Origin: a virus
IMG/VR virus record: IMGVR_UViG_3300046467_001908
Span: 1-22,917 of that record
Strand: one strand, 5' to 3'
Length of the DNA: 22,917 nt
Part shown: positions 3,544 through 16,460 of the stretch, piece by piece
Layout of the letters: each line of letters begins with the position of its first letter
Numbering within the stretch: the first letter of the stretch is position 1
Program-made: the position numbers and the translations under genes
Notes under the pieces: model-generated
The model's database searches: none
What the model saw: only the letters and a program-made list of their open reading frames with translations
Told to the model about the DNA's origin: nothing

Positions 3544-5373
3544 ATGTCAGTAATAGAAACCCTAACAGAGGGCATCAGAGCACGTTCTCTGGCCCATGAG
3601 GGTGAAGCACTTCTCGCGAAGTGGGAAAGAACTGGACTTCTAGAGGGATTGGACGATAATGCTCGTGGCACTATGTCTCGTCTTCTAGAAAACCAGGCTG
3701 CCCAACTTCTCAAAGAAACCAGTACCATGGGTGCTGGTGACGTTGAAGGCTTTGCCTCAGTTGCATTCCCAATTGTTCGCCGTGTATTCGGCAATCTTTT
3801 GGCACAAAAATTGGTATCGGTTCAACCGATGAGCCTCCCTAGTGGACTTATCTTCTTCCTAGACTTTACGTTTGGTAGCGGATCGTTCATGACCCAAAAC
3901 CCTGCTGCCGGCATGGGTGGGCGTTTGGCTGAACAGCAAGATACGTCGCTTTATGGCGGCGCAGTCGTTGCTGCTGGCTTGGTCAACGGTGTTGATCTTG
4001 CTGGAAACAACAGCCAGTTGAGCTTCTACAACCTTAATAATGGTTACTCTAGCCCAACCGGCTCGATGAACACGCTTCCTGGCGCAATCGGCAAAGCTGC
4101 CGCTACGGCAGGTACGATCGTGGTCGCCGATTCCGGAACTTTCTACACCGCGGCTCAAGACAGCCCCGGCGGTGAATTCTGGAATACGTTGTCTCGCGAT
4201 GCTGCCATGGTAAGTGGAACATCGACATATGTTGTTCTGGATGTCTCCCGTCACTTGTTGACAGGTATGCCCACAGGTAGTGAAGACCTCGCTGCTCTTG
4301 TCTTCTCCGGAAGTAATGGCTTGGGTGGACTGTTGGACGGCATGAACGCTGGTACTACTGCTGTTTCGAGCAGCTACTACTCGCGTGTAACTGCCCACTG
4401 GTCGGGCTCCGCTACGGACTACGTTCGCATGGCGGCTGTTTCGACTGATGGCGGATTGGGTGCTACCACTCTTGGATTGCAAATAATTGCTTCCTCGACA
4501 GCGGCTAGCTTCCCGGTGCAAGATAACTTTGTTGCTGGTGGCGCTCTTGGTTCGATCGTTGGAGCGGGCAACAACCAGATCCCAGGTTGGGGACTGGAAA
4601 ACAACCCGGCTATCCCCGAGATTGATATCAAGGTGGACAGCAGTGCTGTTACAGCGATCTCCAAGAAGCTTAAGGCTAAATGGAGCCCTGAGCTTGCTCA
4701 GGATTTGAATGCTTACCACAACCTCGACGCTGAAGTTGAGTTGACAAGCATTCTGTCAGAGCAGATCGCTCTTGAAATCGACCAAGAAATTCTTAATGAC
4801 TTGGTTGTCGGATCGAAGGAAGTTCTCTTCTGGAGCCGTATGCCCGGTAAGTTTGTGGATCGTGAAAACGGAACAGTTGTTTCGACTTCGCTTTTCCCCG
4901 CCTTTACGGGTACCGTTAGCGAATGGTATGAGACACTTCTTGAGACTATCAATGAAGTGAGTGCTCGTATTCATCGCAAGACACTTCGAGGTGGCGCAAA
5001 CTTTGTCGTCTGCTCGCCAGAAGTTGCTAACATCCTTGAGTTTACCAGTGGCTTCCGTGCGGCCGCCGCTGTTGACGAAGAGGGCGGAAGCTGGGGTGTC
5101 AAGCAGGTTGGTTCGATCAGCCGCAAGATGGACATCCATGTTGATCCTTACTTCCCACGAGCAGTCATTCTCGTAGGTCGCCGAGGCAACAGTTTCCTTG
5201 AGAGTGGGTATGTTTACGCTCCGTATGTTCCGCTGCAAGTCACGCCGACCATTTTTGGTACAGAAGATTTCGTGCCCCGCAAGGGTGTCATGACTCGCTA
5301 TGCCAAGAAGATGGTGCGTCCTGACATGTATGGACTTGTTATTTGCATGGATCTGGTTAACCAGAGCGCGTAA
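3544..5373 (+). CDS. Major capsid protein (gp23-like)
   Basis: This 609-residue protein shows the T4-type capsid landmarks. VQPMSLPSGLIFFLDFTFGS comes near residue 95. The segment IDIKVDSSAVTAISKKLKAK leads into WSPELAQDLNAYHNLDAEVE and then LTSILSEQIALEIDQEILND (about 360-420). FVVCSPEVANILEF follows near 490-505. It builds the hexameric lattice of the icosahedral head. T4 gp23 is 521 residues; the extra length is mainly a Gly/Ser/Thr-rich insertion between about 120 and 350. A candidate prohead-protease site, L-K-E at 56-58 followed by TSTMG, fits the T4 L/I-x-E rule and would remove the helical N-terminal 58 residues. AAGGAG lies nine bases upstream of the ATG. The codon use looks biased, as in a highly expressed gene, and a strong terminator follows directly. 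Confidence 0.95.
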   Translation: MSVIETLTEGIRARSLAHEGEALLAKWERTGLLEGLDDNARGTMSRLLENQAAQLLKETSTMGAGDVEGFASVAFPIVRRVFGNLLAQKLVSVQPMSLPSGLIFFLDFTFGSGSFMTQNPAAGMGGRLAEQQDTSLYGGAVVAAGLVNGVDLAGNNSQLSFYNLNNGYSSPTGSMNTLPGAIGKAAATAGTIVVADSGTFYTAAQDSPGGEFWNTLSRDAAMVSGTSTYVVLDVSRHLLTGMPTGSEDLAALVFSGSNGLGGLLDGMNAGTTAVSSSYYSRVTAHWSGSATDYVRMAAVSTDGGLGATTLGLQIIASSTAASFPVQDNFVAGGALGSIVGAGNNQIPGWGLENNPAIPEIDIKVDSSAVTAISKKLKAKWSPELAQDLNAYHNLDAEVELTSILSEQIALEIDQEILNDLVVGSKEVLFWSRMPGKFVDRENGTVVSTSLFPAFTGTVSEWYETLLETINEVSARIHRKTLRGGANFVVCSPEVANILEFTSGFRAAAAVDEEGGSWGVKQVGSISRKMDIHVDPYFPRAVILVGRRGNSFLESGYVYAPYVPLQVTPTIFGTEDFVPRKGVMTRYAKKMVRPDMYGLVICMDLVNQSA

Positions 5374-11859: not shown

Positions 11860-12429
11860 ATGGCAATATTTTGGAATGATGTCCAAATGGACCCCAAAAG
11901 ACAGTTTAGGTTTGTATTACGTTTTCCTCTAGCTACAGTAGGACTTAAGGTGCCCGAGTTTGTTATCAAGACTGTCTCAAAGCCAAAAGTCACTATAAGC
12001 TCCATTCCCCATACTTTTGTCGATCATGAATTTAAATTCCCAGGGCGCGTTACATGGGATCCAGTAACTTTAACCTTGGTGGATCCGGGCAATGATACCG
12101 AAGATATGGCACAGGTTCTTATGAATAAGCTTGGTAAGTCGGGATATAACTACCCCAACTCAGTCGCCCATTCCCTAGCATCCATGAGCAAAGAGAAGGC
12201 AAGCAACGCAGTGGGTCAAGTTCAAATTGCCCAGTTAGATGATAGGGGACAGGACACAGAGGTCTGGACCTTGACCAATCCTTTCATAACAAGCATGGAC
12301 TTCGGTGGACTGGATTATAGTTCTGACGAGTTGTCGGAGATAACCATAGAGTTGACTTATGACTGGGCCACTTTGAATAATTCTGTTACTGGTCCTGCTA
12401 AAGACAAGACCCCCACCATGATCAGATAG
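11860..12429 (+). CDS. Tail tube protein (gp19-like)
   Basis: This 189-residue protein directly follows the sheath gene, the standard order. It has tube-protein traits: an N-terminal RQFRFVLRFPL strand, a VPEFVIKTVSKPKVTISSI segment, the HEFKFPGRVTWDPVTLTLVD hairpin (about 55-74), and a C-terminal WTLTNPFITSMDFGGLDYSS then LSEITIELTYDWATL pair of strands. Hexamers stack to make the inner tube. T4 gp19 is 163 residues. AGGAG lies nine bases upstream of the ATG. Confidence 0.9.
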   Translation: MAIFWNDVQMDPKRQFRFVLRFPLATVGLKVPEFVIKTVSKPKVTISSIPHTFVDHEFKFPGRVTWDPVTLTLVDPGNDTEDMAQVLMNKLGKSGYNYPNSVAHSLASMSKEKASNAVGQVQIAQLDDRGQDTEVWTLTNPFITSMDFGGLDYSSDELSEITIELTYDWATLNNSVTGPAKDKTPTMIR

Positions 12430-12479: not shown

Positions 12480-13361
12480 ATGAGTAGAAATGATAGCCGG
12501 ACTGGGCTCGATGAAACCCACGTCCCTCAAGATACCGACATCACAGCCCCAATTGCGGCGAGCACTCCTTCCACGGAGACTCGTCTCAATTGGGCTATGC
12601 CTACTGAAATAGTAGAGCTACCTTCTAGGGGGCGTTTTTACGGACCAGATCACCCTCTTCACGGACAAACTTCGGTAGAAATCACATATATGACCGCCAA
12701 GGAAGAGGATATAATAACCTCCCAAGCCCTCATCCGAGAAGGCGTGGCGGTTGACCGGATGATACAAAGTCTTTTGGTGGAGCGTAATATTGATGTGAAC
12801 ACATTGCTCCTTGGGGACAAGAACGCCCTGATTGTGGCTTCTCGTATTACCGGATATGGACCAGAATATAATACGACTGTCACATGCCCAGCTTGCACCG
12901 AGACAACGAGGCACACTTTTGACTTATTTGAGCAATCCCATGTGGAGTTTGAAGAGGCGATTGCAAGTGGGGATTGTTTTCTCGACGAAAATAATCACTT
13001 GGTGGTGACCCTCCCCTTTTCCCAAGTTGAGGTACGATGCCGGTTTATGACAGGCAAAGATGAAATGGACCAATTCAAAAAATCAAAAAGAAAAAGTAAA
13101 GCCAAACGAGATCAAAGTAATCTTACTGATACCTTCAAGAATTACATTGTTTCCGTGAATGGGAGTAGTGATGCGCTGGATATTCGAACCTTCGCAGAAG
13201 CTATGCCGGCAAGAGATTCGTTTTATCTACGCAGTTTATACGGCGCTGCAACACCAAACGTAGATATGACCCAGAACTTCGAGTGCGAAAATTGTGGACA
13301 CGAAGCGGACATGGAGGTTCCGCTTACCGTGGACTTTCTATGGCCTCGACGACAAGTATAA
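12480..13361 (+). CDS. gp26-like baseplate/tail assembly protein with split zinc ribbon
   Basis: This 293-residue protein contains the T4 baseplate (gp26/T4_baseplate) family core: EIVELPSRGRFYG near 43-55, VEITYMTAKEEDIITSQALI near 66-84, a VDRMIQSLLVERNIDVNTLL helix, GDKNALIVASRITGYGPEY near 112-130, and a region near 196-240 that ends in LRSLYG. Two CxxC pairs, C136/C139 and C269/C272, are set to form one zinc ribbon closed across the helical core. In T4, gp26 acts in baseplate hub assembly. Here, between tube and tape measure genes, a tail-assembly chaperone role is also plausible. The C-terminus overlaps another reading frame, and a candidate +1 frameshift site lies seven codons before the stop. 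Confidence 0.8.
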   Translation: MSRNDSRTGLDETHVPQDTDITAPIAASTPSTETRLNWAMPTEIVELPSRGRFYGPDHPLHGQTSVEITYMTAKEEDIITSQALIREGVAVDRMIQSLLVERNIDVNTLLLGDKNALIVASRITGYGPEYNTTVTCPACTETTRHTFDLFEQSHVEFEEAIASGDCFLDENNHLVVTLPFSQVEVRCRFMTGKDEMDQFKKSKRKSKAKRDQSNLTDTFKNYIVSVNGSSDALDIRTFAEAMPARDSFYLRSLYGAATPNVDMTQNFECENCGHEADMEVPLTVDFLWPRRQV

Positions 13362-13545
13362 ACTGGGCATTTACGAAGAATTCTTTCAGTTAAAATATTG
13401 GGGTGGATGGAGCTTTTTTGAGGCTTATAATCTCCCTGTACTTATGCGACGATGGTTCCTCAAGAGACTTTCTGAACAAAAGAAAGAAGAAGCCGATCAG
13501 ATGCAAGCGGCACAAAGAAAAGCAAACTCCTCTAGTCGTCGATGA
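13294..13545 (+). CDS. Short tail-assembly ORF overlapping the gp26-like gene; possibly made by +1 frameshift
   Basis: This frame is open from 13270. The first usable start is a GTG at 13294, 68 bases inside the previous gene, with no good Shine-Dalgarno. The first 15 residues from that GTG (Arg- and Trp-rich) look like an out-of-frame shadow. From about base 13339 the sequence becomes protein-like: GLDDKYKLGIYEEFFQLKYW, then GGWSFFEAYNLPVLMRRWFL, then a charged Lys/Glu/Gln tail. Short proteins with a YGG-x-SF-x-EAYNLP-x-x-x-R-x-WF motif follow gp26-like genes in many aquatic T4-like phages, as far as I recall. It may be translated from the GTG, or as a C-terminal extension of the gp26-like protein by +1 slippage at 13335-13338, giving a 354-residue fusion. 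Either way it resembles the paired tail chaperone arrangement before tape measure genes. Confidence 0.65.
   Translation: MDTKRTWRFRLPWTFYGLDDKYKLGIYEEFFQLKYWGGWSFFEAYNLPVLMRRWFLKRLSEQKKEEADQMQAAQRKANSSSRR
13332..13341 (+). other. Candidate +1 frameshift site (GAC UUU CUA)
   Basis: In the gp26-like frame the codons are GAC (13332-13334), UUU (13335-13337) and CUA (13338-13340). A Phe tRNA on UUU can move one base forward onto UUC, its exact cognate, while a leucine CUA codon waits in the A site. The next codon is then UAU in the downstream frame. The zero frame ends seven codons later at TAA 13359-13361. GGAGG at 13313-13317 is present but too far upstream to act as in prfB. No clear downstream structure was seen. 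This is a hypothesis. Confidence 0.4.
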
Positions 13546-13617
13546 AGTTTGTCCCCAAATCAAAGAAAAGTGTTTGAAGCGCCTATTTATTTGAGGGATA
13601 GTGCGAGGATATTTTTT

Positions 13618-13962
13618 ATGCAACAACTTAACGAAGAACAGTTAGAAGAACTAGTATTTGATCTAGGGGCAGCGCGCAAGGGAACTCTTAACGAAAACAT
13701 TTTACATGTGTTTGCTGCGTGGATTCAATACTTGTTGTCTAAAATGTTTAAAGGGCGCAAGGTCCCCGTCCGGGTGCGTGGCAGTCGTATCGAGATTTCT
13801 GCCTTCACCGACGCCTTGGTCAACGAAAAGCGATATATGACTTATATTAAAAAATATGGGCTTGACGACCCTATGACCTACCAACAAAAGGGAAAGCTAG
13901 ATTTAGCCATTCGCAAGTTTGAAAGAGAAGCAAAGATTAATTGGCCCATCCGAGGTCACTAG
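13618..13962 (+). CDS. Small conserved phage protein of unknown function
   Basis: I chose the ATG at 13618, preceded by GAGG at 13605-13608 with a nine-base spacer; it gives 114 residues. The longer frame from a TTG at 13549 lacks a ribosome site. The product has an N-terminal QLNEEQLEELVFDLG helix, a middle amphipathic helix (FAAWIQYLLSKMFKG), a VPVRVRGSRIEISAF strand, and a C-terminal KRYMTYIKKYGLDDPMTYQQ segment followed by KGKLDLAIRKFEREAKINWP. The closing GLDDP-x-TY...K-x-KL...FER-x-x-x-I-x-WP pattern is one I associate with a conserved hypothetical protein near tail genes of aquatic myophages. Function is unknown. The spot between tail chaperone-like genes and the tape measure suggests tail assembly. 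Confidence 0.75.
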   Translation: MQQLNEEQLEELVFDLGAARKGTLNENILHVFAAWIQYLLSKMFKGRKVPVRVRGSRIEISAFTDALVNEKRYMTYIKKYGLDDPMTYQQKGKLDLAIRKFEREAKINWPIRGH

Positions 13963-13973
13963 AGGACCTTTAA

Positions 13974-16460
13974 ATGGCATTAGATTTTGAAGAGTTCAAA
14001 GAATTTTTAGCGCAAATAGACGACGATGAGATCGCCAAACTAGCTCCTCTGTTTGATAAGGCTAGGGAGAGCGCGTCAAAGCTAACTGACAGCCTCGGTG
14101 CCCAAGCTAAACAGCTTAAAGAGATCAAAGCGCAGGAGCGAGACCTTCGCATTCTTCTACGAGAAAAAGAAGAAATGGAGAAACGCGGACTTGCCGTCGC
14201 TCCGGAGCTTCAAAAAAAGATAGATCAGCTTCAACAATCAGTTGGCGGCTACATCCAAAAACAAAAAATACTAAACGACTTGCAGAAAACCGGACAGGTT
14301 TTGATGGGCAAGTACGGGGCTGGACTAGACAAAGCTTTTGGTTCTTTGAGTGGATTCACTAGTAAGTTTACAGAACTTGTAGACCAGTTTGACGCCGCCG
14401 GCACGGACTTAGGTAAAACAACGGGATATGTTCATGCGTTTGAGGATGCCATGACCTCGGCTGCTAGTGGCACAAACGGAATGGCAGTATCTATGGCTGA
14501 GGCCGGGGCAGCCATTGGATCTCTGTCTACCAATATGACATTATTTAACACGCTAAGTGCCACGAATGTTCAACAAATTACTGACCTTACTGTTGCCATG
14601 GGCAAACTCGGCGTAGATGCTGCTTCTACAGCACAGGCTCTGGATACCATGACTCGGGGTATGGGGATGAGTGTAACGGCAGCAGGGGAAGCTGCTCGTA
14701 GCTTTGATCAATTAGCACAAAGTGTAGGACTTCCTACATCTGAGGTTATTGACGGCTTTAATACGATTAGCGGCGATCTTGCAAGGTTTGGGAAAGAAGG
14801 TAAAAAGGTTTTCGGAGGCTTGGTAAAAGAGGCTCGCTCCATGGGGATGTCAATCAAGGAAGCCTTTGACATTGCAGAGGCGTTTGATACGTTTGAATCG
14901 GCGGCTGAGTTAGCGGGCAAGTTAAACGCCCAAATTGGTCTTCAATTGAATTCCGTGACCATGATGAATGCATCTCACGAAGATCGAATTAAGATCCTGA
15001 GAGACGAGTTTAAATTGCGAGGCAAGAACTTTGAGGACATGTCTCAACGGCAACGCCAAGCGATAGCTGAAGTGATGGGGGTTGATGTGGACATGGCGTC
15101 TCGTTTGTTCGGCGATCCCGTGGCTTTGCGCAAATATCAAAAAGAACAAAAAACGTTGGAAGAAAGAGCCAAAGCAGTTACAACAGTCACAGAGGATTTA
15201 AAAAATATATTTGAAGATTTAATGTTGATGCTGGGTCCAGTAGTCAAAGGGTTCCGAAACCTTGTCAAGCTTATGACGGGCAACTGGATCGGCAAGACTA
15301 TATTGATCACGGCGGTGGTGGCTAAGTTGGCAGGGGGTTTTGGAAACCTTGCCACTAGCATCGTCTCCGTGGCTAAAAGCCCTATAAAAACTATCACGGG
15401 GGCTTTTAGTAAATTCTTTTCTGCGGGAGACAAAGCAACCGAAGCAGCCGACAACATGTCAAAAGGGCTGGATAAGACCGGAAAGGCTGCCCAAGGCAGT
15501 TTTGCCCAAATGGCAGGGATGGCATTAGTGATCGTGGCGATCGGCGCAGGTATTGGGATGGCAGCAGCAGGGGTAGGATATCTTGTGCAATCATTTAAAG
15601 ATCTGGGCGATAATGCGCCCTATGCGGTGTTGGGCATTTTAGCGTTCGGCGCAGCCGTAGTTGGCATAGTGCTGGCGCTGGGAGGCTTGGGACCCATCGG
15701 CTGGGTTGCGGTTGGAATTCTTGTCGCCATCGGTGCCGCTGCCGTTGCTATGGGGTATGGGGTGAAACTGGCGGCTGAAGGGATCGGGGGCATTGTCGAT
15801 AGCCTTACTGGACTCACAGACGGAAAAGGCGGCGAGATGGCATGGTCATTACTTAAAATTGCAGGGGGAGTAGGAGCATTAGCCCTTGCTGGCTCTGTGG
15901 GGGCCGTTCCGATCTTGGCTCTTAGTGTGGCGTTACTAGCTCTTGGCGGAGCGTTGTGGATCGTCGGTCCCGTTCTAGAGCGATTTGCTAAAATATTTGC
16001 TAGCGGGCTATCTTCCCTCGCTGATATTGCGAAAGGCATCGGAACTATGTTTTCGAGCTTGGCTCAAATGGGGGCATTCCAACTTCTTAAAATTGGTGCT
16101 GGTTTCGCTGCTTTATCTGCTTCGGTAATATCCATGATGGAAGATCTAGATGTCAACAAGACTAGGTCCCTTACTAATCTTTTGGAAGCCATCGGAGAAG
16201 CCGGCGTTGGAATTGAAAAAATTAGGGCTTCTGCGGATTCACTTAATGCGCTGGAGCGGGTAATAAAGGTCTCCTCGGAGCTTGACATGGGCGCAGGCGA
16301 AGATGTCCGAAGTGTTACCCAGCGAGGACTAGCCACAGCAGGTCCATCGGTTGCACCTAATTACACTATTCCAGTCACATTTAAGATCAACAATACTGAT
16401 ATGGAAAAATATGTAATTAAGATAGTTGATAAGAAATTTGATGTGACGAGGATTGAATAA
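13974..16460 (+). CDS. Tape measure protein
   Basis: This is an 828-residue protein. The N-terminal 110 residues form a charged coiled coil (LKEIKAQERDLRILLREKEE region), followed by a long Ala/Gly/Met-rich helical region. Three hydrophobic stretches lie at about 513-538, 548-600 and 626-668. Coiled coil plus an internal hydrophobic block is typical of tape measure proteins, which set tail length, are held inside the tube, and are ejected during infection. Using the usual ratio of about 0.15 nm per residue, a tail near 120 nm would be expected (inference). The gene follows the chaperone-like ORFs, as in most long-tailed phages. AGAGGA lies seven bases before the ATG, and its stop overlaps the next start (TAATG). 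Confidence 0.85.
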   Translation: MALDFEEFKEFLAQIDDDEIAKLAPLFDKARESASKLTDSLGAQAKQLKEIKAQERDLRILLREKEEMEKRGLAVAPELQKKIDQLQQSVGGYIQKQKILNDLQKTGQVLMGKYGAGLDKAFGSLSGFTSKFTELVDQFDAAGTDLGKTTGYVHAFEDAMTSAASGTNGMAVSMAEAGAAIGSLSTNMTLFNTLSATNVQQITDLTVAMGKLGVDAASTAQALDTMTRGMGMSVTAAGEAARSFDQLAQSVGLPTSEVIDGFNTISGDLARFGKEGKKVFGGLVKEARSMGMSIKEAFDIAEAFDTFESAAELAGKLNAQIGLQLNSVTMMNASHEDRIKILRDEFKLRGKNFEDMSQRQRQAIAEVMGVDVDMASRLFGDPVALRKYQKEQKTLEERAKAVTTVTEDLKNIFEDLMLMLGPVVKGFRNLVKLMTGNWIGKTILITAVVAKLAGGFGNLATSIVSVAKSPIKTITGAFSKFFSAGDKATEAADNMSKGLDKTGKAAQGSFAQMAGMALVIVAIGAGIGMAAAGVGYLVQSFKDLGDNAPYAVLGILAFGAAVVGIVLALGGLGPIGWVAVGILVAIGAAAVAMGYGVKLAAEGIGGIVDSLTGLTDGKGGEMAWSLLKIAGGVGALALAGSVGAVPILALSVALLALGGALWIVGPVLERFAKIFASGLSSLADIAKGIGTMFSSLAQMGAFQLLKIGAGFAALSASVISMMEDLDVNKTRSLTNLLEAIGEAGVGIEKIRASADSLNALERVIKVSSELDMGAGEDVRSVTQRGLATAGPSVAPNYTIPVTFKINNTDMEKYVIKIVDKKFDVTRIE

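Follow-up and report, generated by a model that had tools for sequence, protein, structure and literature searches.

Programmed frameshifts in the tail assembly chaperone genes of the G/GT type are mostly -1, with a -2 shift in Mu and a +1 shift inferred for HSTV-2, and T4 was named in 2016 as an exception to the G/GT arrangement (PMC5009743). According to PMC10885494 and PMC12846349, which cite their paper, Vladimirov, Gautam and Davidson (2022) accounted for T4 by one gene for the short protein and another for the long one; poly-T -1 sites of T4-like phages are referenced to that paper as well. Few bacterial +1 sites without a stop codon are known and no general motif has been established for them (PMC10885494). 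UUU_Ynn is reported as a sequence on which bacterial ribosomes are particularly liable to shift +1 (PMC5009743).

The DNA analysed here (the window) is the 22,917-nucleotide stretch of IMG/VR record IMGVR_UViG_3300046467_001908, and all features are given on its plus strand. The gene at 12480-13361 encodes a 293-aa protein, a gp26-like tail assembly chaperone corresponding to the short (G-like, TAC-N) product. In a profile search this protein matched PF12322 with an E-value of 4.7e-11 (43.2 bits against a curated cut-off of 24.5) and it also matched phrog_150 (E 5.3e-13). AlphaFold2 (AF2) predicted its structure with a pLDDT of 90.7, and the fold resembled that of an SP-15 hub subunit in a BFVD fold search (E 1.5e-17). 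Sequence and fold searches of the PDB gave no significant match, the HK97 chaperone 2ob9 appearing only at E 3.4 in the fold search. The gene is placed between those of the tail tube (11860-12429; phrog_4542, E 3.9e-23) and the tape measure protein (13974-16460; phrog_167, E 5.3e-11), which is the usual position of a tail assembly chaperone, and the local order is sheath, tube, gp26-like gene, +1 ORF, small ORF and tape measure. The small ORF (13549-13962) encodes a small protein; its listed start is a TTG, but an ATG near position 13620 looks likelier. Elsewhere in the window two tandem paralogous genes, 1483-1956 and 1973-2452, are 71% identical.

The original prediction described a +1 frame open from 13270 with a lone GTG start and no ribosome site, and this was borne out. 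The frame is open over 13270-13545, overlapping the gp26-like gene, and the only potential start ahead of the conserved domain is the GTG at 13294-13296, before which no Shine-Dalgarno sequence was found. This GTG arises when TGT GGA, which encodes Cys-Gly in a zinc finger, is read in the +1 frame, and a GTG at about equal distance is seen in many relatives, as expected from these codons. Because it can be explained in this way, and because no start at all is present in 64 of 127 relatives, we do not regard it as a genuine start.

The gp26-like gene ends in GTG GAC TTT CTA TGG CCT CGA CGA CAA GTA TAA (...VDF LWPRRQV*). The proposed slip tetranucleotide, UUU_C at 13335-13338, would allow the P-site Phe codon to change from UUU to UUC, and all relatives have TTT or TTC at this place. 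The predicted junction VDF-YGLDDK proved exact, with TTT at 13335-13337, C13338 skipped and reading resumed at TAT 13339. The +1 extension thus entered (13339-13545, 68 aa and a stop) encodes a domain, here called T, which is homologous in all relatives and has three predicted helices. From the frame relation and its conservation, a G-T fusion of 354 aa would be encoded by 12480-13337 joined to 13339-13542 (12480-13545 with the stop). The 12 bases TTTCTATGGCCT (13335-13346) form a conserved dual-coding motif with the consensus TTT TTT TGG CCT, which in the window reads TTT CTA TGG CCT. This 12-mer is unique in the window, and TTTYTWTGGCCT occurs there a single time and in none of 100 shuffles. 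In-frame TTT CTA is found once among the 6308 codons of the window, at the slip site itself, and CUA, the A-site codon there, is the least used leucine codon of the window. In-frame TTT C is also present outside the slip site, at 12978, and for this reason a code in which TTTC is read as F throughout the fusion was rejected.

About 160 loci were recovered in two scans of viral contigs; once duplicates had been removed, 133 motif-bearing loci remained, the window and three GenBank records included. The T ORF lies in the +1 frame in 130 of these and in the -1 frame in three. In the 130 loci the site follows the pattern TTT/TTC-YTN-TNN-CCN, the zero frame ends no more than 10 codons past the junction, and the +1 ORF continues beyond the zero-frame stop to the extent that the contig allows; where the contig does not end, the homologous extension has about 55-104 residues. 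Conservation of the slip site and of the frame relation in related phages, the check proposed with the original prediction, was therefore found in 130 distinct loci. Among the 127 +1 loci with enough flank for site statistics, TTT TTT TGG CCT is present in 91, TTT CTT TGG CCT in 12, TTT TTT TAC CCT in nine, TTT TTT TGG CCA in seven and TTC TTT TGG CCT in four, the other four having rare forms such as the TTT CTA of the window and of the huge-phage genome LR756508. Microcystis phage Mel-JY01 and Flavobacterium phage immuto, both sequenced, have the same +1 arrangement, and 12 loci from assembled microbial genomes agree with it. In Bacillus phage SP-15, Listeria phage LIS04 and Streptococcus phage GXN1 a +1 T ORF also follows E-FF; the sequence after it is different and there are possible starts upstream, so these are weaker cases, and a scan started from SP-15 recovered SP-15 itself only. 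As a separate observation, a +1 chaperone locus is found in assemblies labelled bacterial or archaeal (L263, a WOR-3 bacterium chromosome, and L264-L274); these are probably prophages or co-binned phage contigs.

Alternatively, the +1 ORF could be a small gene in its own right, with translation beginning at GTG 13294 or reinitiating once the zero frame has ended. In favour of this are the presence of that GTG upstream of the domain and two distant relatives with a separate T gene: in L086 its ATG lies just after the zero-frame stop, and in L181 the gene overlaps that stop. Such well-placed independent starts, which the original prediction had named as the finding that would speak against it, are absent from the +1 clade and were seen only in these two. 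In 64 of the 127 loci the +1 frame contains no ATG, GTG or TTG from its last stop to the site, and in many of these a +1-frame stop lies directly ahead of the site; a conserved downstream ORF that overlaps in another frame and has no start of its own is characteristic of G/GT genes, and this pattern is seen here. Moreover, the conserved T-side homology begins at the site itself, and codon-position conservation changes from the zero to the +1 frame exactly there. Upstream of the site the third position of the zero-frame codons carries 0.15 bits on average, whereas downstream it is the third position of the +1 frame that is least constrained (0.39 against 0.56 and 1.04 bits). The 12-base motif between them averages 1.82 bits per base over the 127 loci and is constrained in both frames; for its proline, CCT is used in 119 of 127 loci, against 31% of the proline codons upstream. 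A separate gene is thus quite improbable.

Two further explanations accept the fusion and differ in how the frame is changed. A Mu-like -2 slip would lead into the same frame with one extra residue, and RNA polymerase slippage on the T run would alter the mRNA so that standard translation makes the fusion. Seven consecutive T are present at the site in most relatives, which would permit both -2 re-pairing and transcriptional slippage. However, 18 of the 127 loci have a broken run, the window among them with at most three consecutive T at the site, and the variants TTT CTT, TTT CTA and TTC TTT give no sensible -2 re-pairing, while a +1 slip from a UUU codon works in each. Neither explanation fits the variants that break the T run, and we regard the -2 slip as very unlikely and transcriptional slippage as equally so. 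With a single metagenomic contig one might suspect gene decay or an error of sequencing or assembly, but the frame is broken in the same way in 130 distinct loci and in the sequenced phages Mel-JY01 and immuto, which refutes this.

At the same junction the T ORF can also lie in the -1 frame. In the cyanophage-type gp26 genes (L182-L261) a T ORF without a start lies in the -1 frame at the same position in 79 of 79 readable loci, with U_UUU_UUC as the putative slip site (U_UUU_UUU in one of them), and Aeromonas phage Ah1 resembles these genes. The three -1 loci among the motif-bearing ones (L068, L092 and L094, all distinct) read TTC TTC TGG CCT TCC CGR TAG and hence cannot slip +1 on a UUU codon. 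At their junction A_AAT_TTC is conserved, and L092 and L094 have no start in the -1 frame before the zero-frame stop. A T ORF placed in the -1 frame after a slippery heptamer of the form X_XXY_YYZ is present only in these three loci and in the cyanophage-type genes; in the window the ORF is in +1. In the tree of the G part the three loci form one clade (100/99) nested among +1 members. The +1 site has therefore apparently been replaced by a -1 site, and this nested sub-clade appears to have switched from +1 to -1. Apart from these loci, Stenotrophomonas phage RAS14 (L089) has the sequence ACG AGT TTT TTT ATC followed in the -1 frame by a T-like ORF (3780-4037), which is annotated as a separate hypothetical protein and has no start in its frame before the zero-frame stop. 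A scan for relatives of RAS14 found none, so this arrangement rests on RAS14 and its near relative.

An alignment of 59 T domains contains one invariant proline, and AlphaFold2 predicted three helices for the extension of the window (pLDDT 88). DUF6760, of which no mention was found in the literature searched, matched 14 of the 59 (best E 1.6e-4), and phrog_634, 'baseplate hub assembly catalyst', matched six (best E 0.0015); the best hit of a fold search in BFVD had an E-value of 0.57. T4 gp26 and gp51 both belong to PF12322 (E 8.8e-64 and 3.9e-52), gp51 having an extra C-terminal tail of about 45-50 residues. In single hhalign comparisons the cyanophage T profile matched this tail with a probability of 97 (E 4.6e-11), or 98 for the tails alone, and the cyanophage -1 and +1 T profiles matched each other with a probability of 90-93 and a score of 36.7 against a shuffled maximum of 22.9. 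No significance was reached when the +1 T profile was compared directly with the gp51 tail, or when direct homology between the +1 T domain and T4 gp26 or gp51 was sought. For this reason the link to gp51 is indirect, the +1 extension being probably related to the gp51 tail through the cyanophage gp26 -1 extension as an intermediate.

Taken together, we think it highly likely that a single tail assembly chaperone gene, made up of the gp26-like gene and the +1 ORF overlapping it, uses a programmed +1 shift at UUU_Y and gives products of 293 and 354 aa. The site, the frame relation, the two-frame coding constraint, the lack of starts and the homology chain all come from the sequence alone. They support the three elements of the original prediction, namely a +1 slip at UUU_C, its occurrence in a gp26-type gene and the G/GT logic. 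Most ribosomes would end in the zero frame and yield the G-like product, and a fraction would slip with tRNA-Phe on UUU, while a sense codon (CUA in the window, usually UGG in relatives) waits in the A site, and yield the G-T fusion. The re-pairing would be UUU to UUC in the window; for relatives it would be UUU to UUU, or else CUU to UUU. On UUU CUA and UUU CUU the P-site tRNA-Phe would shift from UUU to UUC, UUU UUU U could slip at either codon, and at CUU U a prfB-like slip may occur. The predicted UUU-to-UUC slip fits the window; it does not hold as a fixed slip codon for the clade, because the UUC UUU U variants require a slip at the second codon. By analogy with lambda G/GT, binding of the tape measure protein would fall to the G part, and recruitment of tail tube subunits to the T part of the few fusions. 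We infer that slippage takes place, at which codon and how efficiently, and that the protein acts as a chaperone. No common RNA helix was found (mean z-scores mildly negative, -1.35 upstream and -1.09 at +12; 0.24 for the window), nor any conserved Shine-Dalgarno stimulator at the site in relatives, the GGAGG of the window (13313-13317, 17 nt upstream of the site) being not generally conserved. The efficiency of the shift is not predictable for lack of such conserved elements.

The link between gp26 and the chaperones, which the original prediction drew from the frameshift, had already been published (Vladimirov et al. 2022, as cited in PMC10885494 and PMC12846349), and according to PMC10885494 so had the reading of T4 gp26 and gp51 as a pair. 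It is therefore the +1 direction that is new. No report of the +1 clade was found in the literature searched, in which Vladimirov et al. 2022 is represented by the papers citing it. What looks new is a large, almost uniformly +1 clade, a 12-base dual-coding site and a change of direction. In the uncultured T4-like phage of the window it is very probable that a second domain is added when some ribosomes pass over a single base close to the end of a gp26-type gene. More broadly, we lean towards the view that an undescribed large T4-related clade makes its long chaperone by +1 shifting on a sense-codon site (UUU_Y, in most cases followed by UGG CCU) with no evident structure or Shine-Dalgarno sequence, and that the G-T junction of one family may be served by +1, by -1, by translational coupling or by gene duplication, with a switch from +1 to -1 in a nested sub-clade. 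With well over 100 naturally occurring versions of a single site, the clade makes visible the tolerated bases and one change of direction, and the rules can therefore be tested with a simple reporter. In addition, the T domain is unannotated or given a wrong start in the GenBank phages Mel-JY01, immuto, SP-15 and LIS04, and no fused product is annotated.

Compared with known systems, prfB shares with this clade the re-pairing by the P-site tRNA (CUU_U or UUU_U), and some relatives have CUU UGG C where prfB has CUU UGA C. Unlike prfB, the clade has a sense codon in the A site (CUA or UGG) and lacks a conserved nearby Shine-Dalgarno sequence, and neither the A-site stop nor an adjacent stimulator is present in the window. 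The haloarchaeal myovirus HSTV-2 also has an inferred +1 shift in its tail chaperone gene (PMC5009743), but it is a single archaeal virus and is likened by description only. T4 gp26 and gp51 share PF12322 with the clade, and the gp51 tail probably corresponds to the T domain, but in T4 these are two separate, divergently oriented genes without a frameshift. The cyanophage-type gp26 genes (T_TTT_TTC) agree in gene family, junction position and a related T domain without a start, and differ in that their shift would be -1, at a classical heptamer. Finally, lambda G/GT (PMC5009743) has the same placement between tube and tape measure genes, and a short product accompanied by a minor long one that gains a C-terminal T domain through a frameshift close to the 3' end. 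Lambda and most others shift -1 and Mu shifts -2, whereas in the clade of the window the shift would be +1 on UUU_Y and the G part belongs to the PF12322 family.
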